A DNA stretch of 64,000 nt from Gammaproteobacteria bacterium (lineage in GTDB: Bacteria > Pseudomonadota > Gammaproteobacteria > Steroidobacterales > Woeseiaceae): the NCBI GenBank assembly GCA_024640305.1, contig JAHEFG010000011.1, positions 1 through 64,000 on the forward strand, written 5' to 3'. Numbering within the stretch: position 1 is the stretch's first letter; each line of letters starts with the position of its first letter. The translations under genes were made by a program, and so were the position numbers. The notes under the pieces were generated by a model, which had not been told where the DNA came from, made no database searches, and saw nothing but the letters and a program-made list of their open reading frames with translations. Shown piece after piece: positions 18,267 to 28,747 of this stretch.

Positions 18267-18653
18267 TCAGGGTTTAACAGGTGGCCGGCTGTCAGACATG
18301 AGCCTGTCCAACGTCTTCTGCGCTTTTCCTGGCACGCGAAGGTCATGAACCTCAAGCATCTCGCAGTCATCCTTGACCATTTGCTCGATATCGACCGGAT
18401 AATGCCTGCAGTCATCCGGACGATTGTAATAGATGCGGCAGATGTACTTTTTCTGACCGGGCAGCTTGCGTAGCCAGGGGCACCTGTCCATGGTTTTACC
18501 GGTGACGGGACTAACCCATATCCTGCCATTGCTGACGTAGCTGGCAATTTCCGGGCTGTGGGTTTCCCACCAGTCAATTTCTCTGGCTGTAACGGAGAGA
18601 TTGCCGCCGCCGTAATTCGTGCAACACTTGCCGCATTGATTGCATTCTTTCAT
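18267..18653 (-). CDS. YkgJ-family cysteine-cluster protein
   Basis: Encodes 128 residues starting with the cluster CNQCGKCC (residues 4-11), then a further conserved Cys in CPWL and the segment CRIYYNRPDDCRHYP. This is the CxxCxxCC pattern of the YkgJ/UPF0153 family of putative Zn- or Fe-binding proteins; the biochemical role is not established. The ATG overlaps the stop of the upstream serine-hydrolase gene in ATGA, and AGGGGA lies six bases ahead, so translation is probably coupled. It is the last gene of the four-gene run that begins with the sulfotransferase. Confidence 0.75.
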   Translation of the reverse strand: MKECNQCGKCCTNYGGGNLSVTAREIDWWETHSPEIASYVSNGRIWVSPVTGKTMDRCPWLRKLPGQKKYICRIYYNRPDDCRHYPVDIEQMVKDDCEMLEVHDLRVPGKAQKTLDRLMSDSRPPVKP

Positions 18654-20395
18654 GCGTTTCCCCTGCACATCGGTCGAATGCGGTGCGATTCGCGCACTGC
18701 GTGCAAATAACGGTGAACATTGCCATCACTAAAGTAATAGTAGGCTGTAGCATTGGGCATGAGAACAATATTGATGCCGCCGAACCCTGACATTGTTACT
18801 AACCATATCGGCTGATCGCACCCGATGTACTCGGCGACATTAAAACTCCGAAAACCATTGTTGTACCGAATAGTCTCAAGTTCTGCCTGCATGCCGGGAT
18901 CATCCGGATTGCGTTGCTTGATTGCGTCAAACAATTTGCGGTCGAGCGGATCGGCATCCCGCAGACGACCATCATCCACGCCGATAAATTGTGCAAGCCT
19001 GGCGATGTCATCACGAACGAACGTCAGTCCAAACCCGGAGAGCGGCTGGGCCACTTCATCATTTGTACGACGTGTTTGCATTGCCAACTGACTAAGGCCG
19101 AGAGGACCCCATAGCCTGGCGACGATCAGGTCGTTATAGAAATCTGCCTGATCGCCTTCGATTGACTTAAGACGATTATTAATCGCTGTTCCAGCCAGGT
19201 AGATTGCCCATGTCTGGTAAGACCAATGCTCGCCTGGATCAGATTTTCGCGGAAATTCATTGCAGGCGAAATCGATCTTCGTCGCATGATCTTCTCCCAG
19301 GAAGAACCGACCGGCAATGGCCGCATCTTCATCGGCATGCGGCTCCGGCGAATCATAGTGACCCGTCACGAGATCCAGCGCGTGCTCGACGGTGACCCCC
19401 TCCCAATCGTCACCGCATTCAGGAACATAGTTTTTGATCAACGCAGTCGCGGTACCCGGGTATGCTTTTTCAGCCAGCATCAGCCCGAGCCCGCCAACCA
19501 GAGACTTGGCCGTGGAGTAAGACGGCAGTGCCAACTCATTGCAATACGGAAACTTCCCAAGCGGAGTATCACAGCCGCCAACGTAGTGGACGCCGTCAAT
19601 AATAAATCCGAACACTGACATATCGCCCTGCTCAATTTCCTCAACTGAGCCGAATTCAGAGGGGTCTGCATTGGGGAAGTAATCTGCAAGCAAGTCGATT
19701 GGACGTTGCGGCATCCTGCTCGACCTGTTCGCATTGACCGCGGCGACTGCTTCTGCGCCCCCCTCCACTCCATCAGGCTCGTACTCGGCACGCAGCAACC
19801 CGTGCATTTCAAACTGCAGGTACCCGCATGTCTGACTACTAATCTGAAAGGCGACATTGGAAATATTCCCCGCGTCAGTGAACAAAAAGCTCATCAGGCC
19901 GTTATGAATGCAGTCCTCATTTCGTTCTTTGAGCGCAAATGGCAATGCGACTCGCGAAAAGCCGTTGTCGAATTCTTCGTCCCAGACTTTCCCGGGTAGC
20001 AAGACAAATTCCCACCAATTGTGTGCGTTGCCGATCGGACCCTGGCGCATCGGCACCAGAATGTCACCGTCCTGAACAAATTCGAAGCTGAACGGTGGCA
20101 ACTCCTGCATGCCGAGTCGATCGAGGTCTGCGAAATTCAGTTCGTCGACAATTATCCTGAAGTCATTCGATTGGGAATCAGTCGCAAGAGTCATACGGCC
20201 TGATAAATTGTTGCTTGCCGGCCTGGCGCCAGGCAGAGGAGAAAATTCTGAGAGTACAATTGGCGCGTCGATCGCAACGCCGCTCATTAACAGGTCATAC
20301 GAGAGCATTCTCGAACTTGCATCGGGCGGCCGAGATTCGCCGCAGGAAAGAAGCGACAGTGCCACGCTTGCGAGAATCGCCTTGCTGAAAGTCAT
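18650..20395 (-). CDS. Serine-hydrolase (beta-lactamase/PBP fold) lipoprotein
   Basis: Encodes 581 residues with a lipoprotein signal (LLSC, lipid Cys at residue 18). Residues about 30-230 form an N-terminal domain I do not recognise. The C-terminal half is a class C beta-lactamase/esterase-like serine hydrolase: S-x-x-K motif STAK with Ser294 and Lys297, the Tyr motif in WSYQTW near residue 393, and MSGFGGIN near the end as third motif. Such enzymes hydrolyse esters, amides or peptides in the periplasm. It lies between an MFS transporter gene and ykgJ, so it may process the substrate moved by the neighbouring proteins. The substrate is unknown. Confidence 0.75.
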   Translation of the reverse strand: MTFSKAILASVALSLLSCGESRPPDASSRMLSYDLLMSGVAIDAPIVLSEFSPLPGARPASNNLSGRMTLATDSQSNDFRIIVDELNFADLDRLGMQELPPFSFEFVQDGDILVPMRQGPIGNAHNWWEFVLLPGKVWDEEFDNGFSRVALPFALKERNEDCIHNGLMSFLFTDAGNISNVAFQISSQTCGYLQFEMHGLLRAEYEPDGVEGGAEAVAAVNANRSSRMPQRPIDLLADYFPNADPSEFGSVEEIEQGDMSVFGFIIDGVHYVGGCDTPLGKFPYCNELALPSYSTAKSLVGGLGLMLAEKAYPGTATALIKNYVPECGDDWEGVTVEHALDLVTGHYDSPEPHADEDAAIAGRFFLGEDHATKIDFACNEFPRKSDPGEHWSYQTWAIYLAGTAINNRLKSIEGDQADFYNDLIVARLWGPLGLSQLAMQTRRTNDEVAQPLSGFGLTFVRDDIARLAQFIGVDDGRLRDADPLDRKLFDAIKQRNPDDPGMQAELETIRYNNGFRSFNVAEYIGCDQPIWLVTMSGFGGINIVLMPNATAYYYFSDGNVHRYLHAVRESHRIRPMCRGNA

Positions 20396-20419
20396 TACTG
20401 CGCCTGCCTGGTCGTCGTG

Positions 20420-21601
20420 CTAGTCGCTCGATTCACGATCGAGTGCCCGCGCCGGCAAAATCATAACCAGCACGCATCCGACGAGCGCAATGACCGCTAT
20501 GTTAATCAGCAGACCATAGTTGTTCTGACCAACAACCATCGCCGCAACCGCCGGGCCCGAAGCAAGTCCCATCTTGGATGCGAATCCACCCAGTGCCGCC
20601 ATCTGGCCGGTCGAATCAAATTCGGAACACATGCCGAGCAGGTAGGAAATGACGAACGCCCAGGTAACACCAACCAGCACATTCGACCACCAATAAACAG
20701 ATGTTTCCCAGCCACCCGGCTTCACGTCGCTAAAGTGGAGTAACCAAATGCCAAATGCGGTCAGAATGATGGCTAAACCGACCGGAATAAGGCGACCGAA
20801 CTTTGTCGACATCAAAATGACCAGAATCGAACCGGCAATCGCGACCCAGGCGGCAATGCCAAGTGCACTGCTAATGAAATTCGTTTCCAGCATAGCGTGC
20901 TTGCCAATGCCTATTGCGAACGCATAGATACCCATGTTCGCCGCCTGAAACAAGAACGTTGCTACCAACGCCATCGCTGCCAACTTTTTGTGATTATTGC
21001 GTGAGCTTGCAACGCTCGCCGTTTCCTTCGGTGGGTAATCCGAGATGAAAGGCAACATTAACAAGGTGACAAAACTGAATGTGACGAGCGACAGAAACAG
21101 TGCTGTTGTTCCATATTCAGGCACCAGACCAGGCAGATATATCAATCCAAGGCCGCCCAGGCCGAACTGAATAGTCAGCAGGTATCCAAACGTACGATCC
21201 GCATGAGTCGTCCTCGAAATGACCGCAAATCCGATTCCGACTAACAAACCACCAACACAACCATGAGCAAATCGTGTACCGATTAGTACATTGGCGTTCG
21301 TCACATACATCGACGCGAAATCGAAAGCCATCAGACCGAACAGCAAAACGACAGCAGCAACTCGCCAATTGATACGCTTGACCACGAATACAGCACTAAA
21401 CGCGCCCAACGCAGCACCGTAGACATTGGCAGAGCCCACGAATCCCGCCTCGCGGTTGCTGAAACCCAAACCTTCGATGAGCCCATCGACGAGCGCCGGC
21501 ATGATGTTCACGTAGAACAAGCCTGCGGTCGCCAGAAACGCGAGTAATACGCGGGCGACTTCGCCGTTTGGTGCTGCTACAGGAAAAATATTGTTTCTCA
21601 T
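20420..21601 (-). CDS. Major facilitator superfamily transporter
   Basis: Encodes 393 residues with about twelve hydrophobic segments and a short polar middle loop around residues 195-215, the normal size and layout of an MFS permease of the inner membrane. The substrate cannot be inferred from sequence. It starts 15 bp after the sulfotransferase stop and ends 24 bp before the lipoprotein gene, so these genes are almost certainly cotranscribed. The MFS protein could move a processed compound across the inner membrane after import by the TonB-dependent receptor, or export a sulfated product. Confidence 0.75.
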   Translation of the reverse strand: MRNNIFPVAAPNGEVARVLLAFLATAGLFYVNIMPALVDGLIEGLGFSNREAGFVGSANVYGAALGAFSAVFVVKRINWRVAAVVLLFGLMAFDFASMYVTNANVLIGTRFAHGCVGGLLVGIGFAVISRTTHADRTFGYLLTIQFGLGGLGLIYLPGLVPEYGTTALFLSLVTFSFVTLLMLPFISDYPPKETASVASSRNNHKKLAAMALVATFLFQAANMGIYAFAIGIGKHAMLETNFISSALGIAAWVAIAGSILVILMSTKFGRLIPVGLAIILTAFGIWLLHFSDVKPGGWETSVYWWSNVLVGVTWAFVISYLLGMCSEFDSTGQMAALGGFASKMGLASGPAVAAMVVGQNNYGLLINIAVIALVGCVLVMILPARALDRESSD

Positions 21602-21616
21602 TACTGCACCTGTTCG

Positions 21617-23248
21617 CTACTGAGCTTGTGTATCCTGAAGTATGCCGGCCTGCTGCAATATCTCGGCAACCGGCTGCAATTGTTCTTCGTATTCATGCCA
21701 TTTGCCGACCGAGCTCTTGTATATGGGCCGCCTTATCTGCGCCGTGCTCGCCGTCGTGGACGCTTCCTTGTTTTCGTAAAACTTGAGGCATTGTGCCTGC
21801 CAGTCAAGACCGCATGCGTCAAGCAGCTGCCTGGTCTTCGCCTCGATATCATCCACGAGGTCCTCGTACTGAATCGTATGAATCACTCCGGGAAGGATTG
21901 CGTGCCAGTGCTGCATCAACTGATGGTAAGCCACGTAGTAACGAGCCAGTTCCTCGAGGTCGTAGGAGAATGGATACGCGTCCACAAACAGCTGTTTGTA
22001 AACCGCGTAGCAAGTGTCCATCGGGTGGCGTTGCAGATTGATTATCCTGGCTTTTGGCAGCGAAAGATGAATCAGCCCGACGTACAGGTAATTCAAAGGC
22101 ATTTTGTCAATAAAGCGCGGCGTCTTGCCCGTAAACGGCCGTGTACTATTGATATACGCTTCACCGAGACGTTTGAAGTCCAGCGTCGCCGACGACTGCA
22201 CCATCTCGTCACGCGTCACTTTTTTGTCGATGTTTGCAGCACGCATCATCGTCATCAGCTGCACGGCGAAGTTGTTCAACTCACCCGCCGCAAAAACATC
22301 CGAATGACTCGCAAGGATTCGTTCGACCAGCGTTGTACCGGTCCTCGGCATGCCGAGGATAAAAATCGCTTCGTCGTTGTCGCAACCGTCGCCTGGAGCG
22401 GCAAAAATATCCTTACTGAATGCCCTCTTGATCGCCTCGATCGTTTCCAGGTCGCGCTCAACCTCATACTTCATCAGTTTGCGGCGCCGATCTGAACCGG
22501 TCTTCAGATGCCTGAACGAGCGCTCTGCCTCACCAAGATCCTCCAGTTCCTTCGCAACGCCGTAGCAGACCTGGACTAAACCGCGTTCATCATCGATGCC
22601 GCTGTCCAACAGCTGCTCAAGCTCGGCAACGTGATTACGCTCCGGTGTCTGGCGTCGCAAGTCCGAGCGGATCTTGTAAGACTCGTAATCCTCCGGATCC
22701 AGGCGAATCGCGTTATCATAATTAATCTCCGCGGCTTCCAGTTCGCCGAGCGAGCGCTGCATACACGCGAGGTTGTAATAGTTCCTGGCCTGGTCCGGCT
22801 GCAGCTCAATCGCCTTTTTGTAAAAACCCACTGCCAGTTCGCGTGAACCCAGTTGTGTGTGTAGCAATCCCAATGCCGCACACTGATACGCCGTGCTCAA
22901 CTCGCGAGCTGACAAAGTCTTCACCGTGGCATCGAGTTCCTCGACTCGACCGAGTCGTGCAAGACATTTCGCTTTTTGTAATTGCCAGTCTAATTGTCCG
23001 GGATCTATCAAGACTGCGCGCTCGATCGCTGCGAGAGCTGCAGGCACATTACCCAGCCTCATCATGAGATGGCTCGTTGTATGCCAACCGGACCCAAATT
23101 CCGGGTATTGCCGGTTGAGCTTTTCGCACTCAGCGATGGCTTGTTTGGCGTTGTTTTGTCCTATCAGGTCCCATACGGCGGCCTCCAGAGACTTGGCCGC
23201 TGCGATATTAATTGTGTCGGATTGCCCAGGATTCATATTGGCTAACAT
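21617..23248 (-). CDS. TPR-containing sulfotransferase family protein
   Basis: Encodes about 543 residues. The N-terminal half (about residues 20-250) contains tetratricopeptide repeats with A-x-x-x-x-x-A-I-x-x-x-P patterns; the C-terminal half is a sulfotransferase domain with the PAPS-binding loop ILGMPRTGTTLVERIL (about residues 297-312) and the later motif INLQRHPMDTCYAVYK containing the second PAPS-contact Arg/Ser-like region. Sulfotransferases of this family transfer sulfate from PAPS to a hydroxyl or amino group; acceptor unknown. The open frame reaches upstream to a GTG at 23281, but that lies inside a terminator hairpin, so I take the ATG at 23248 (ATG at 23236 also possible). First gene of a four-gene run. 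Confidence 0.75.
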   Translation of the reverse strand: MLANMNPGQSDTINIAAAKSLEAAVWDLIGQNNAKQAIAECEKLNRQYPEFGSGWHTTSHLMMRLGNVPAALAAIERAVLIDPGQLDWQLQKAKCLARLGRVEELDATVKTLSARELSTAYQCAALGLLHTQLGSRELAVGFYKKAIELQPDQARNYYNLACMQRSLGELEAAEINYDNAIRLDPEDYESYKIRSDLRRQTPERNHVAELEQLLDSGIDDERGLVQVCYGVAKELEDLGEAERSFRHLKTGSDRRRKLMKYEVERDLETIEAIKRAFSKDIFAAPGDGCDNDEAIFILGMPRTGTTLVERILASHSDVFAAGELNNFAVQLMTMMRAANIDKKVTRDEMVQSSATLDFKRLGEAYINSTRPFTGKTPRFIDKMPLNYLYVGLIHLSLPKARIINLQRHPMDTCYAVYKQLFVDAYPFSYDLEELARYYVAYHQLMQHWHAILPGVIHTIQYEDLVDDIEAKTRQLLDACGLDWQAQCLKFYENKEASTTASTAQIRRPIYKSSVGKWHEYEEQLQPVAEILQQAGILQDTQAQ

Positions 23249-23266
23249 ACTAGATACAAAGTGAAC

Positions 23267-23292
23267 AAAAAAACCCGGCACAATGTGCCGGG
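23267..23292 (-). terminator. Rho-independent terminator after the TonB-dependent receptor gene
   Basis: CCCGGCA, loop CAATG, TGCCGGG, then seven T residues on the minus strand. It lies 44 bp after the receptor stop codon and 20 bp before the sulfotransferase start, so it probably lowers rather than eliminates expression of the downstream run unless a promoter lies within the sulfotransferase leader. Confidence 0.9.
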
Positions 23293-23335
23293 CTTCTTGC
23301 GCGTCATAGTAACGATGGTCTAGCCGAGCTTACAG

Positions 23336-25861
23336 CTAGAACCGATAGCCAAACTTCACGCCGATAGTACGCGGCTGCACGATAAACTGCCGATTACTGT
23401 TACCGTACCAGTTCTCGAACACGCCGTTATCGAAGCTCCAGTCAGTCGCTGCAAAGCCACCGGACGCCCCTGCTTCGTCTGTCAGGTTCCTGGCATACAG
23501 CATCGCGCTCCAACTATCAGTATTCAGCGACAATGTTGCATTCAGCAACGTGAACCCATCAAAGGTTTCGTTGACAGGGCTGGCCTGATTTATGAAATTC
23601 TCTGAATCACTTTGATAGTAGGCATTCAGTCCGGCGATAAGGTCCATATCTGAATTGATTGCCCAGCTGTTATCAATGCTGACGCTTAACGTGTCGCTAG
23701 GTGAACCCGGTAAGGTCGACCCTTTAGGCGCGACAACCCCACCTGTCTGCGGGCTGATAAAATCCTTATCCAATTCAGCGCTGACGTGCGTGTAGCCGAC
23801 GCGATAATGGAAACTGTCTGCCAGGCGCCCCTCTAACTCGAGCTCGATGCCCTGCGTTGACGCCTTGTCGCCGTTCGCTGCCACGTAGAATCCATACCAG
23901 GCAGACGTCGTATTCAGCTGCGGGTCGCTCCAGTCGACCTGAAACAGCGACGCGGTATAACGCAAATTATCTCGGCCACCTTTGACACCCACCTCGAAGT
24001 TTCTCACGGAGTCCGATGCAAATGTACGCAGGCTTTCCGCATTGGGTTCTCCAAACGGATCACCATCGTCCGCACTCGGCAAGGATTGCGCCCCACCATG
24101 ACGGTAACCCTCGGAATACGTGCCATACAGCATCGTGGAATCATTCAAGTCCCAGGACGCATTTACTTTCACCAGCACGTCGCTGTCGCTGTCCTTTGAC
24201 TGCGGCGCCATGGGCGAAGTCCAGCCTTCTCCTAACGGGAACCCAAGAATTACATCATTAACGGTTTCGTTATCGAACGCTCGCAAGCCGCCGGTCAAAC
24301 GAAAAGTATCCGAGACGTGATAAGTCACTTCGCCATACAGGGCCGTTTCCTTGTAGCTCGTATCGCGGATATATTCGAAGTCGATCTCCGTCAATTGAAT
24401 ACCCGGGTAGAATATCGCCGGCCAGAAGCCATCACACACGGGATCGGCGGCTGGAATACCGGTATCAACACATGCTCTATGGAAGAGGTTCATCCCGGGG
24501 TTGTGGCTCAACTGGTAGACGCTGTTGTCCTGGTCCATGTAATACGCGCCAACCAGCCAGTCAACCTTGCTATCTGACGCATTCGACACAAGGCGGAATT
24601 CCTGAATGAGGGCTTCATCGTCATACCCGCGTTCTGCGCGCTGTGCCGGACGTGGCCAGCCACCACCATAGAAGTTGAAATTCCAGTCGCGGCCGCCGCT
24701 GGCCCATAATCCACCATTGTCCGACTCACCTACACCTTCGTGATCATAGGTAGAGGTCGTTGACGTAAACGTCGCGAAACCGAGGTCCCATTCGAGATCA
24801 AGGCTGATCAGCTCCGCTTCCCTGGATGATGGTTCAAGCAATACCTGGCCACTATCATCGTCACTGTATTCGAAATACAGCGGATCGCCCGGCAATACGT
24901 AGGGAGCATTAGCGTTATTGCCAAGCGTTGTCGAACGTCGGGCCCCGATCTCGTCATCCTGCATCTGGTAGTTCAGTTGCAGGCTGAATGAATCGGAAGG
25001 TTCTACTCTCAACGACACCTTCGCATAGTCGATTTCTACGTAATCTGCATCCTCCACCGACTCAAAGCAGCCTACATTGGCCAGGATCTGGTCATCAGTG
25101 GCCGACCTGGGATCTACGCAAGTGCCATTAACGTTGACGAGCGGCTCGCGAAAAGAGTTGAGCTGATAAGCGTTTACGTAGTCAATGATGCCGTCGTTAT
25201 CGATTCGGGAGTAGTTCGCACGAATAGCTGCAATCTCGCCGATCGGAATATTGACCATCGCGTCAATCCCGAGATCGCTGCCTTCTGAGCCCGAAACCTG
25301 GCCGTAGTCGAGGTCGAACTTCGCCTCGAACTCCTCAGCACTGGGTTTGTTGCCGATATAGCGCACGGTTCCACCAAGGGACCCCGAGCCATACAGCGTG
25401 CCCTGTGGTCCGCGCAGAACCTCAACACGCTCGATGTCCTTGACCAGGAAATTCGCAAACAACGGCGTATTGTCGTAATACGTTGCAACCGTCGGCACCG
25501 CGTTCAGCATGATGTCGCCGTTCTGACCGTTGTCTACGTTGAGGCCACGAATAACGATGCTGTTGACGGTTCCGCCGTTGCGATATCCGCGATCGACAAC
25601 AGTGATACCGTGCATAGCCCTGAGCACCTCGGTTTGGTTGACGATGTTCTGTCGCTCCAGAGCGTCACCCGAGATGGCGGATATGTTGTATGGGATGTCC
25701 TGCATACTCGTTTCACGTCGAGTTGCCGTGACGATGATCTCCTCAAACAGCCCGGCATCGGAATCGGCCGTCTGGGCGATCGACATCGGCGAAGCACCCG
25801 CGATGGCGGTGCCTATCGCTACCACCAGCGGCTTCCTTGTGAACGTTGTGGTCGTTTTCAT
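23336..25861 (-). CDS. TonB-dependent outer-membrane receptor
   Basis: Encodes 841 residues: signal peptide ending near SIAQTA, a TonB-box-like segment EEIIVTATRRETSMQDIP, an N-terminal plug domain with VEVLRGPQGTLYGSGSLGGT, and a C-terminal 22-strand barrel ending in GVKFGYRF with the terminal Phe. Such receptors import scarce substrates (siderophores, glycans, cofactors and other complexes) across the outer membrane using ExbBD-TonB energy. The sequence is of the broad FecA/CirA-like or glycan-linked type; the ligand cannot be told. The ATG at 25861 begins the canonical signal peptide and follows AGGGGGATA. It is flanked by amidohydrolase and sulfotransferase genes and followed by a strong terminator. 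Confidence 0.9.
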   Translation of the reverse strand: MKTTTTFTRKPLVVAIGTAIAGASPMSIAQTADSDAGLFEEIIVTATRRETSMQDIPYNISAISGDALERQNIVNQTEVLRAMHGITVVDRGYRNGGTVNSIVIRGLNVDNGQNGDIMLNAVPTVATYYDNTPLFANFLVKDIERVEVLRGPQGTLYGSGSLGGTVRYIGNKPSAEEFEAKFDLDYGQVSGSEGSDLGIDAMVNIPIGEIAAIRANYSRIDNDGIIDYVNAYQLNSFREPLVNVNGTCVDPRSATDDQILANVGCFESVEDADYVEIDYAKVSLRVEPSDSFSLQLNYQMQDDEIGARRSTTLGNNANAPYVLPGDPLYFEYSDDDSGQVLLEPSSREAELISLDLEWDLGFATFTSTTSTYDHEGVGESDNGGLWASGGRDWNFNFYGGGWPRPAQRAERGYDDEALIQEFRLVSNASDSKVDWLVGAYYMDQDNSVYQLSHNPGMNLFHRACVDTGIPAADPVCDGFWPAIFYPGIQLTEIDFEYIRDTSYKETALYGEVTYHVSDTFRLTGGLRAFDNETVNDVILGFPLGEGWTSPMAPQSKDSDSDVLVKVNASWDLNDSTMLYGTYSEGYRHGGAQSLPSADDGDPFGEPNAESLRTFASDSVRNFEVGVKGGRDNLRYTASLFQVDWSDPQLNTTSAWYGFYVAANGDKASTQGIELELEGRLADSFHYRVGYTHVSAELDKDFISPQTGGVVAPKGSTLPGSPSDTLSVSIDNSWAINSDMDLIAGLNAYYQSDSENFINQASPVNETFDGFTLLNATLSLNTDSWSAMLYARNLTDEAGASGGFAATDWSFDNGVFENWYGNSNRQFIVQPRTIGVKFGYRF

Positions 25862-25950
25862 GGTCTGTGTATCCCCCTGCTCGTATGAGCGAAATCGCAA
25901 GAACTAAGCTAACCCAGTCACAACAGGTCCCGTAGATCCAGATATGTTAT

Positions 25951-26817
25951 TCATACTGGTCCAGAAGACCCCTTCTTTCGTTCCGCGTGTCGGAGCTCAC
26001 CCAATGCTTTTAGTGCCTCGGAGTCGTAGCCCTGGGTATACGGCGGAAATTGCACCCGACTATCGCGAAAGCTTTTCAACGGCTGCCCAAGGTTGTGCCA
26101 GCCGTTTTTCCGAACTTCATGTAAATTATCTAAATTAATACTTAATGGTATGATTTCTCGGGCTTTTCCTGCCTGATAAATAACCTCACCACCGGGCCCG
26201 GCGATACACGACTGCCCGACACCGAGCGGGCCAGCAACATTGACATCGAAGAACACGAGCTGATGCATCGCCGCATGGGCGCGAATCATCGCTATCTCGG
26301 CATCACGATCGATTGTGCTGGTCAGGCTCGGGTGCAGAATCACCTCCGCACCCATCCACGACATGGTGCGGATGGTCTCCGGGAACCACATGTCGTAGCA
26401 GATTGAAATTCCGAATCGCCCTACGCCGGGCACGTCAAACACGCAGAAGTCCTCACCGGGCGTCACACCGTCCTCATACGGCAGCCACGGAAACAGCTTG
26501 CGGTAACGTGCGACAACCTCGCCGTCCGGCGATATAACTGGCGTGGTGTTATAGATATTCCCGGCGTCCGCTTCGAAAATGGACCCAGGAATCAGCCATA
26601 TCCCGTGTTCGCGGGCGATGGCACGAAACCGGCCTTCGGTTGCGCCGGGCATGGGCTCGGCGCAGGCCTTGTCCGCGCATGCGTTGAGCTCGCCCAATAC
26701 CACCATATCGAGCCACGGAAACCGCACTACCGCGTCTTCGATCTCTGCGAGCATTGCGTCGACGTTATTACCGTTCACAGCTTCGAGTTGCAGGCCCGCA
26801 ATCGCAAAATTTGTCAT
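25951..26817 (-). CDS. Nitrilase-family carbon-nitrogen hydrolase
   Basis: Encodes 288 residues of the nitrilase superfamily with its complete catalytic triad: Glu43 in LGELNACADK, Lys107 in RYRKLFPW and Cys140 in ISICYDMWFPE. These enzymes hydrolyse non-peptide amides, nitriles or carbamoyl groups in the cytoplasm; the aliphatic amidase/N-carbamoyl amidohydrolase branch is plausible but the substrate is not determined. A ribosome binding site AAAGGGG lies seven bases ahead of the ATG. The gene follows the MocR regulator in the same direction with 109 bp between and is likely its target, and precedes the TonB receptor gene. Confidence 0.8.
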   Translation of the reverse strand: MTNFAIAGLQLEAVNGNNVDAMLAEIEDAVVRFPWLDMVVLGELNACADKACAEPMPGATEGRFRAIAREHGIWLIPGSIFEADAGNIYNTTPVISPDGEVVARYRKLFPWLPYEDGVTPGEDFCVFDVPGVGRFGISICYDMWFPETIRTMSWMGAEVILHPSLTSTIDRDAEIAMIRAHAAMHQLVFFDVNVAGPLGVGQSCIAGPGGEVIYQAGKAREIIPLSINLDNLHEVRKNGWHNLGQPLKSFRDSRVQFPPYTQGYDSEALKALGELRHAERKKGSSGPV

Positions 26818-26850: not shown

Positions 26851-26926
26851 ATCGGGTCTTTGGATAGGTCCAGATTCGGATCCTATATTGAGCCAGATGC
26901 CGTCGAACGCTCGGGCCAGACTACCC

Positions 26927-28747
26927 CTAATCGCCCGCTAATCGAATGAAAGCTGAGTCGACGATTTGCTTGTCGGCGTTGAAATACTTGATCTTGTCGC
27001 CGTCGATCACAATGTAATAAGCCGTTTCCTCGCCATATACCCAGCGATCCCATTTGCGGAATAACTGCTCCCCCTCAACTCGCCAACGACCAGTGTCACG
27101 ATCTTCATTTGCGAAGCCGAGCCGACCCTGCATTGTGCCGTCCGGCAGGTGTTCGATCGTGCAAGGCGCCCCGTATACCTCGCGATACAGGATTGTCGCC
27201 CCGGCCATTGTGCGCTGCAATTCATCGCCGATCAGCCAGCTACCGGACGACGTCTCCAGTTGCTCTACCTGGCCTCTTACGAGATCTCGCAGCAGCTTGA
27301 TGAGTTGTTCGACACCGGGCCTGATTTTGCCGTGTGGAAGGCTTGTTACGCCCATGCGAAAACAGTTTTCGGCGTTTTCGGCCACAGCGTAATACTGCTC
27401 GACCGGCTCTATCAGGATACCGTGCTTTTCTGCCTCTCTTGTCAGGTTGCCAACATCGAAGTCCCTGGGTGTGCGTACCCAATACGTTGTGCCCCCCACT
27501 TCAGGTGATATTTCCAGCGGAATTCCGCGCATATTGTTGAGCGCATCACGCAGCGCCATGCGACGCTCACGAAACACCCTCCCGAGACGCATCATCAGCG
27601 CATCGTAGTGCCCAAGCGAAAGGAAATAGGCGGCTGTGCGCTGATTATTGAGCGGTGGGTGGTTGAGTATCTTGCGCCGCAACTGTCGAGCACGCCTGAT
27701 GAAACCAGGGTTGGCGACAATGAAGCCGAGCCTTGCGCCGGGTGCCAATGCATTTGAGAAGCTTGCGATATAGATGACCCGCCCTGCGACATCCATGCTG
27801 CGCAGCGCGGGCAACGGGTGATCCATATAGTTGGTTTCGCACTCGTAGTCATCTTCGACAATCAGGAAATCATCGTCCGCTGCGGCTTGAATCAAAGCCT
27901 GCCTGCGCTCCAGCGACATGGCCACGGCTGTTGGAATCTGGTGGCTGGGCGTAACGTAGACGATGCTGGCGCCCTGCAAATTCTCGTCAACGACCAAGCC
28001 CTGGTCATCGACTTCCTGTGCAACAACATTCGCGCCTCGCAGGTGCAGTAAGTTGCGCATCTCATAATTGCCTGGCTCTTCCATGACCGCACGTGTCGAC
28101 TCGTCTGCCAGGAGTTGGCTGATGATGTAAAGGCTGTTCTGCGTGCCCATCGTGACAAGGATTTCGTCAGATCCGGCCTGAATTCCACGTCGCGTCAGAA
28201 TCTTCGTGCGAATTTCCTCGATCAGCATCGGATCATCGGCATCGCCGCTCCCGGTTGACCAATCCCCAACATCCGCAACGCCCAGGGACAGGCGATTTGC
28301 CTCCCGCCACTCGGTGATGGGGAATAACGTCGCGTCGAATCTGCCGTCGATGAACGGAAACGGGTAATGGCGCCAGTTCGGCTGGCCGTGCTCCTCGTGC
28401 CAGAGGGACGGAATGGCCTTCACGCGTCGCGCCCATGCCTTTGACTCTGCCTGCGCAGCGGGAGATGAGTCACTGCTGTGCCCGACACGAGCCTCGAGCA
28501 TCTCCTGGCTGACGAAAATCCCGCTGCGATTCCGGCTGACGAGGTAGCCATCCGATACGAGTTGCTGGTAGGCCGCGACCACAGTATTCCTGGCCACGTT
28601 GAGTTGCTGGGAGAGCTTTCGGCTCGAGGGCAGCCTCATGCCGGGAGGAAAGGAGCCATTCAGAATGCCGTCAACCAGCTTTTGCCGGATCTGGTTCTGC
28701 AGATTCAGTCGGTTGTCTGCATCAATGTAGATAATCGTATCTTGCAC
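26927..28747 (-). CDS. MocR/PdxR-family regulator with degenerate PLP site and extra C-terminal domain
   Basis: Encodes 606 residues from a GTG start. Residues 1-80 are a GntR-type winged helix (RLPSSRKLSQQLNVARNTV). Residues about 125-490 are a fold-type I aminotransferase domain with TPSHQIPT and VEDDYE. The PLP-lysine motif, normally SFSK, is SFSNALAPG: Asn332 replaces the Schiff-base Lys. Residues about 500-606 form an added domain with GDEL...PDGTMQGRLG...DTGRWRVEGEQL...GDKIKYF, resembling small beta-barrel ligand-sensing modules of DUF995/lipocalin type. MocR proteins (about 450-500 residues) normally activate neighbouring genes in response to PLP or an amine-PLP adduct. Here PLP cannot be covalently held, so the regulator may sense ligand differently, perhaps through the C-terminal domain. 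It probably controls the downstream cluster and possibly the divergent peroxiredoxin gene. Confidence 0.85.
   Translation of the reverse strand: MQDTIIYIDADNRLNLQNQIRQKLVDGILNGSFPPGMRLPSSRKLSQQLNVARNTVVAAYQQLVSDGYLVSRNRSGIFVSQEMLEARVGHSSDSSPAAQAESKAWARRVKAIPSLWHEEHGQPNWRHYPFPFIDGRFDATLFPITEWREANRLSLGVADVGDWSTGSGDADDPMLIEEIRTKILTRRGIQAGSDEILVTMGTQNSLYIISQLLADESTRAVMEEPGNYEMRNLLHLRGANVVAQEVDDQGLVVDENLQGASIVYVTPSHQIPTAVAMSLERRQALIQAAADDDFLIVEDDYECETNYMDHPLPALRSMDVAGRVIYIASFSNALAPGARLGFIVANPGFIRRARQLRRKILNHPPLNNQRTAAYFLSLGHYDALMMRLGRVFRERRMALRDALNNMRGIPLEISPEVGGTTYWVRTPRDFDVGNLTREAEKHGILIEPVEQYYAVAENAENCFRMGVTSLPHGKIRPGVEQLIKLLRDLVRGQVEQLETSSGSWLIGDELQRTMAGATILYREVYGAPCTIEHLPDGTMQGRLGFANEDRDTGRWRVEGEQLFRKWDRWVYGEETAYYIVIDGDKIKYFNADKQIVDSAFIRLAGD

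Follow-up and report, generated by a model that had tools for sequence, protein, structure and literature searches.

The window (the whole stretch of DNA that was analysed, 64,000 nucleotides) encodes a MocR-type transcription regulator in which the Schiff-base lysine is replaced by asparagine. The subfamily of MocRs to which it belongs is marked out by an additional C-terminal domain of about 110 aa, and sequence trees show at least 11 changes of this lysine within it, with Asn, Arg, Gln, His, or Ala in its place. The computed results are the lysine loss and its recurrence, one gain of the extension on the trees, purifying selection, and conservation of the operon and of the 23-bp repeats. 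The explanation to which we give slightly better than even chances is that a working DNA-binding MocR-type regulator has abandoned the PLP aldimine: the subfamily would have acquired a lipocalin/calycin-like C-terminal domain once, this gain would have rendered covalent PLP dispensable, the lysine would afterwards have been lost repeatedly, and sensing would now be mainly C-terminal. The features concerned are the following.

26927–28747 (−), MocR-type regulator without the lysine, 606 aa, GTG start (ORF; Pfam GntR and Aminotran_1_2; GabR the best PDB match)
28511–28699 (−), winged-HTH GntR DNA-binding domain, residues 17–79 (PF00392, E 1.4e-16)
27308–28339 (−), aminotransferase-like class I/II domain, residues 137–480 (PF00155, E 5.6e-11)
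27752–27754 (−), codon 332 (AAT, Asn), aligned with the PLP-binding Lys312 of GabR (codon reading, phmmer alignment)
26930–27280 (−), C-terminal extension domain, residues 490–606 (predicted helix and eight-strand beta meander, lipocalin/calycin-like)
26864–26922 (−), probable operator consisting of three direct repeats (CTGGCCC, CTGGCTC, and CTGGACC) with 23-bp spacing, in the gap that separates the regulator from the amidase gene
25951–26817 (−), carbon-nitrogen hydrolase (nitrilase family; amidase), 288 aa, next downstream of the regulator (PF00795; 59 of 74 loci)
23336–25900 (−), TonB-dependent receptor, 854 aa (PF00593 and PF07715; 57 of 74 loci)
21617–23281 (−), TPR and sulfotransferase protein, 554 aa (PF13469, E 1.4e-48; 47 of 74 loci)
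20420–21601 (−), MFS transporter, 393 aa (PF07690; 18 of 74 loci)
18650–20395 (−), serine hydrolase of the beta-lactamase fold family, 581 aa (PF00144, E 2.5e-7; 39 of 74 loci)

The earlier note had read SFSN in place of SFSK in this protein, with TPSHQ and VEDDY retained. Both readings were confirmed: codon 332 is AAT in the coding sense (ATT on the + strand), the ORF of 606 aa is intact, and the two retained motifs were located at residues 266–270 and 297–301, respectively. The alignment with GabR of Bacillus subtilis, which the note had suggested as a check, was made using phmmer (4n0b, E 7e-43) and placed Asn332 opposite Lys312 with the motif ungapped; GabR is also the closest solved structure by sequence. 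As the Schiff-base lysine is truly lost, chemistry rules out an internal aldimine at this position, as the note had argued. The N-terminal GntR-type winged HTH and the C-terminal fold type I aminotransferase-like domain expected of a MocR are both present, and the conserved Schiff-base lysine is replaced by Asn332. The protein is of MocR descent by the tree, yet by its sequence it is no PLP-aldimine MocR. Another lysine in the Schiff-base role was looked for in the alignment, and in no column did the share of Lys in 18 Lys-less pocket proteins exceed that in 68 Lys-bearing ones by over 25 percentage points, a comparison made on alignment columns. A 3D model of the protein reached a pLDDT of 85.

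Family members were collected at E ≤ 1e-40 from 18 of 99 related genomes, at E ≤ 1e-90 from 16 of 73 genomes of the genus and 48 of 396 genomes of the order, and from the top 80 among 555 related stretches on named genome contigs. The named matches include Woeseiaceae MAGs, Luminiphilus, Haliea, Parahaliea, Colwellia, Glaciecola, and Caulobacter, and the window's own genome has one copy. Site 332 was Lys in 68 of 86 non-duplicate pocket-bearing proteins, Asn in 7, Arg in 7, Gln in 2, His in 1, and Ala in 1; L042 and L048, cut at contig ends, were counted as family by tree position. When six pocket-less proteins were included, 24 of the 92 proteins of the extension family lacked the lysine. Six further proteins, from five assemblies besides that of the window, among them Luminiphilus syltensis NOR5-1B, also have Asn at site 332 (AAT or AAC), and this recurrence, together with at least 11 changes on the tree, indicates that Asn332 is more than chance. 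Two regulator paralogues were present in each of two genomes, both with Asn in G057 (L007 and L022) and both with Lys in G007 (L006 and L023). A broken regulator copy (L020/L027) was found on contig C185 of genome G013, with pieces in different frames, one of which has an internal TAA.

A careful tree was constructed for 106 proteins with column 332 excluded. The 15 extension-free relatives formed one side of a branch with a support of 100/100, and the Lys/non-Lys state gave 11 changes and 11 independent pairs on supported branches. Quick trees likewise gave 11 changes, and the extension state changed once, which places a single gain of the C-terminal domain on the trees. The changes were read as losses, since the outgroup and most members have Lys; under parsimony some reversals to Lys are possible, notably near the window. 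The note had asked whether close homologues share Asn: six other family proteins and the neighbouring clade (AAT/AAC) have Asn, but the closest relatives of the window regulator, L030 and L031 (75% identical), have Lys (AAA).

Among MocRs lacking the extension, 14 of the same order and L019 all had Tyr227, Asp299, Lys332, Arg339, and Arg464. Because the 15 sister MocRs alone were judged too few for a rate comparison, 62 MocRs without the extension were used as controls, comprising 47 matches to the PdxR profile or outgroup matches and the 15 sisters. L153 and L156 (family members) and L208 (extension-bearing) were dropped, and a profile of the extension matched none of the 62 controls. Lys was present in 62 of 62 controls, with 0 losses over a tree length of 49.8, compared with 11 changes over 36.2 in the family; at the family's rate, the longer control tree would be expected to show approximately 15 losses, and the controls, being mostly collected by the PdxR profile, are mildly biased towards Lys. 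With L208 included (n = 63), Asp at 279 was found in 63 and an aromatic residue at 205 in 62.

The Lys-less members remain under purifying selection. The dN/dS of the aminotransferase domain in Lys-less pairs was 0.044 (L033/L042), 0.053 (L034/L041), 0.088 (L107/L108), 0.100 (L109/L117), and 0.109 (L088/L096). Three pairs from the pocket-less clade gave 0.13–0.35 for the aminotransferase domain and lower values, 0.06–0.22, for the C-terminal domain. All these ratios are rough, because some of the dS values approach saturation.

The PLP pocket was mapped beyond the lysine using the phmmer alignment and Table 2 of PMC6917764, which lists the GabR active site. The window regulator shares with GabR, in which PLP and GABA form an external aldimine, the winged HTH, the aminotransferase-like domain, and the residues Asp299, Tyr301, and Arg339 (GabR Asp279, Tyr281, and Arg319). 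It differs in Asn332 for Lys312, Asn227 for Tyr205, Ile271 for Phe250, the extra C-terminal domain, and neighbouring genes without gabT or gabD. Arg464 is also retained; it was equated with GabR Arg430 by the FRMG motif, as the phmmer alignment does not extend to it, and only 34 of 63 controls have Arg at the aligned site. In the 18 Lys-less pocket proteins, Asp299 was kept in 17, Arg339 in 14, and Arg464 in all 18, while the stacking aromatic residue at the GabR Tyr205 position was absent in 17. Loss of the stacking Tyr is not typical of the whole family, an idea dropped because Tyr stands at 227 in 35 of 84 proteins. Aromatic loss at 227 was associated with Lys loss in raw counts (Fisher p 1.5e-4); however, on independent pairs a mean of 1.2 of 8 agreed and the others showed no difference, so the association is only a trend.

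In a clade of six extension-bearing proteins (L123, L125, L133, L135, L136, and L140), no recognisable PLP site is left: the TPSHQ motif is missing, as are the Asp, the Lys, and the two Arg residues. As its sister L109/L117 already has Arg for the lysine and Gln for the phosphate Arg, the sequences suggest that the PLP site decayed stepwise. An Alteromonadales-like clade (e.g., L078, L079, L094, and L104) keeps Lys332 and the aromatic residue at 227, with Gln replacing the phosphate-binding Arg339 in 16 of 16 rows.

In Pfam, the C-terminal domain of the window regulator matched nothing at E values up to 5, and in six relatives no match was better than E 0.1; a PDB sequence search gave no convincing match. 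The AlphaFold2 model of the domain (pLDDT 94) consists of a helix and eight beta strands. With Foldseek, the best match had an E of 6e-3 and a TM of about 0.5, with none below E 0.001; the top matches included the lipocalin-like Bla g 4, NlpE, YedD, UnaG, and FABP, along with unrelated carboxylase chains.

The operon adjoining the regulator was followed across 88 stretches, of which 74 were non-duplicate with a called regulator ORF, by tblastn of the window's operon proteins; the counts given in the feature lines are lowered by short contigs. The operon was found beside regulators with or without Lys. All six operon proteins were matched by tblastn at five of the six pocket-less regulators, and the sixth, at a contig start, lacked the amidase only. 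None of six extension-free sister loci had an amidase, MFS, or serine hydrolase gene, and a TonB-receptor piece and a TPR-sulfotransferase gene were nearby in two of them (L217 and L219). No paper on a MocR with TonB, sulfotransferase, or nitrilase genes was found in the open-access literature.

The gene set at 18650–26817 (−) is conserved across gamma- and alphaproteobacteria, and its association with GABA genes in some genomes offers a lead. Genes of the GABA transaminase family, the succinate-semialdehyde dehydrogenase family, or both were near 14 family loci, all Lys-bearing (gene identity was set in L073 by TIGR00700 and TIGR01780, above cut-off), and both were absent among the neighbours scanned in the window.

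The three 23-bp-spaced repeats in the window, at 26919, 26896, and 26873, are probably the operator. CTGG repeats with this spacing were found in the regulator–amidase gap at 46 of 74 loci (34 of 58 with Lys and 12 of 16 without), or at 45 of 73 and 11 of 15 Lys-less loci when L046/L113, the same region, were counted once. In 200 shuffles, no distance reached more than 3 loci. The Lys-less loci without a repeat pair were L043, L076, L033, and L034 (4 of 16). TauR of Rhodobacter capsulatus has a direct-repeat operator, and the TauR box CTGGACYTAA given in a passage of PMC5320631 resembles CTGGACCTAT of the window; the comparison covered the operator box, and taurine genes were absent among the window neighbours scanned.

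Under the preferred explanation, the dimer would still bind the 23-bp repeats and control the amidase/TonB-receptor/sulfotransferase operon, the aminotransferase domain would also serve as a dimer scaffold, and the signal would be read mainly by the C-terminal domain. Engineered mutants bear on this. EnuR Lys302His is described in PMC8739950 as not binding PLP and as a constitutive repressor with no response, and MpaR Lys314Ala is described as having abolished reporter activity; the lysine loss of the family is natural and repeated, and His occurs naturally in L046/L113. As these mutants are unresponsive, and as the family keeps its operon, the selection, and mostly the operator candidate, the signal must be read otherwise. 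The C-terminal domain is the likeliest main sensor, as this domain, with its operon, separates the family from MocRs showing no loss; against it, the support for a sensor role is the domain's conservation and fold matches that are weak. As the extension and the operon go hand in hand, the tree does not separate their links with the lysine loss, and with the extension gained only once, its link to the loss is a single event.

The lysine still matters in most lineages, as 68 of 86 pocket-bearing members keep it. Asp299, Arg339, and Arg464 in the window regulator suggest that its pocket still holds something, probably a carboxylate-bearing ligand and possibly, by analogy, non-covalent PLP, PMP, or a PLP-amino acid adduct. 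The near-complete retention of Asp299 and Arg464 in Lys-less pocket proteins likewise indicates that the pocket is still useful, and sensing need not have wholly moved. The earlier note had proposed sensing without PLP chemistry or non-covalent PLP binding, and either fits the data; beyond it are the subfamily with its extra domain, the at least 11 changes, the pocket-less clade, Asn227, and the persisting operon with mostly an operator candidate.

The best-surviving alternative, which we consider unlikely but worth serious attention, is that the B6 site is still the main sensor, binding PMP, or PLP already joined to an amino acid as a Schiff base, non-covalently, with the C-terminal domain as an accessory. 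The retained pocket residues and the strong purifying selection on the aminotransferase domain would agree with it, and a precedent is described in PMC8987622 for the 3-dehydratases ColD, E1, and SpnQ, fold type I proteins in which His replaces the catalytic Lys and PMP is the cofactor; these share the replacement with the family but are PMP-using enzymes, not transcription regulators. However, the stacking aromatic residue is missing in all but one of the Lys-less pocket proteins, EnuR Lys302His gives no response, and the pocket-less clade retains the same operon, so that no B6 site is needed for reading the signal. Less probable still, and in our judgement distinctly so, is that lysine loss leaves an uninducible constitutive repressor or passive binder, with sensing gone and the operon kept for basal use. 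The EnuR and MpaR mutants behave in this manner, but the regulator, operon, and mostly the repeats are kept through at least 11 changes with dN/dS of 0.04–0.11, and genome G057 retains two Asn copies. An artefact of sequencing or assembly, or gene decay, in this metagenome-assembled genome was rejected as very improbable. In its favour, a single base change would make the Asn codon one for Lys, AAA is the codon of the nearest relatives, and the window genome is a 78%-complete assembly; against it, the ORF is intact, Asn recurs in other assemblies, and purifying selection persists.

A broader reading than the preferred one is that the whole subfamily moved sensing from the PLP–lysine aldimine to the calycin-like domain, while the aminotransferase domain decayed in stages to a scaffold, with loss first of the stacking Tyr, next of the Lys, then of the phosphate Arg, and finally of every PLP residue; we consider it tentatively, at a little under even. 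If true, a B6-dependent regulator turned B6-independent in front of the same operon. Asp279 and Lys312 are said in a passage of PMC6677901 to be conserved across all MocR clusters, with an aromatic residue at 205 seemingly required, and the Schiff-base lysine is said in PMC2018728 to be conserved in all MocR-like regulators, which are described as PLP-dependent. The family departs from these statements repeatedly, at Lys312 and at position 205, with the operon kept. In the open-access literature, we found no account of this family or of a MocR with the catalytic lysine replaced, and an earlier mention elsewhere is possible. With this natural series from an intact to an absent PLP site, the way in which a sensor comes to dispense with its cofactor once it has gained a domain is open to direct test.

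Automatic annotation would label the window regulator PdxR, as it scores 338 against the cut-off of 320 of the PdxR model (NCBIfam NF052282), and this naming should be treated with caution. It differs from PdxR in lacking the PLP lysine and in having the extra domain, and no vitamin B6 biosynthesis genes were found among the eight neighbouring genes scanned at the locus.

The C-terminal domain was found in 60 related genomes only in these regulators (nine places in eight genomes), and a search of 369 genomes of the class gave four further genomes with distant copies (E 4e-8 to 7e-4). Two loci, L177:325-1818 and L180:226-1827, encode class III adenylate/guanylate cyclases with a membrane-helix-like stretch followed by two apparent tandem distant copies of the domain, an arrangement suggesting that it is a reusable sensor module. 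Small proteins with a signal-peptide-like start, a weak match to the C-terminal domain, and no convincing Pfam family are encoded at L178:1378-1869 and in L179 (a 170-aa ORF on the − strand).
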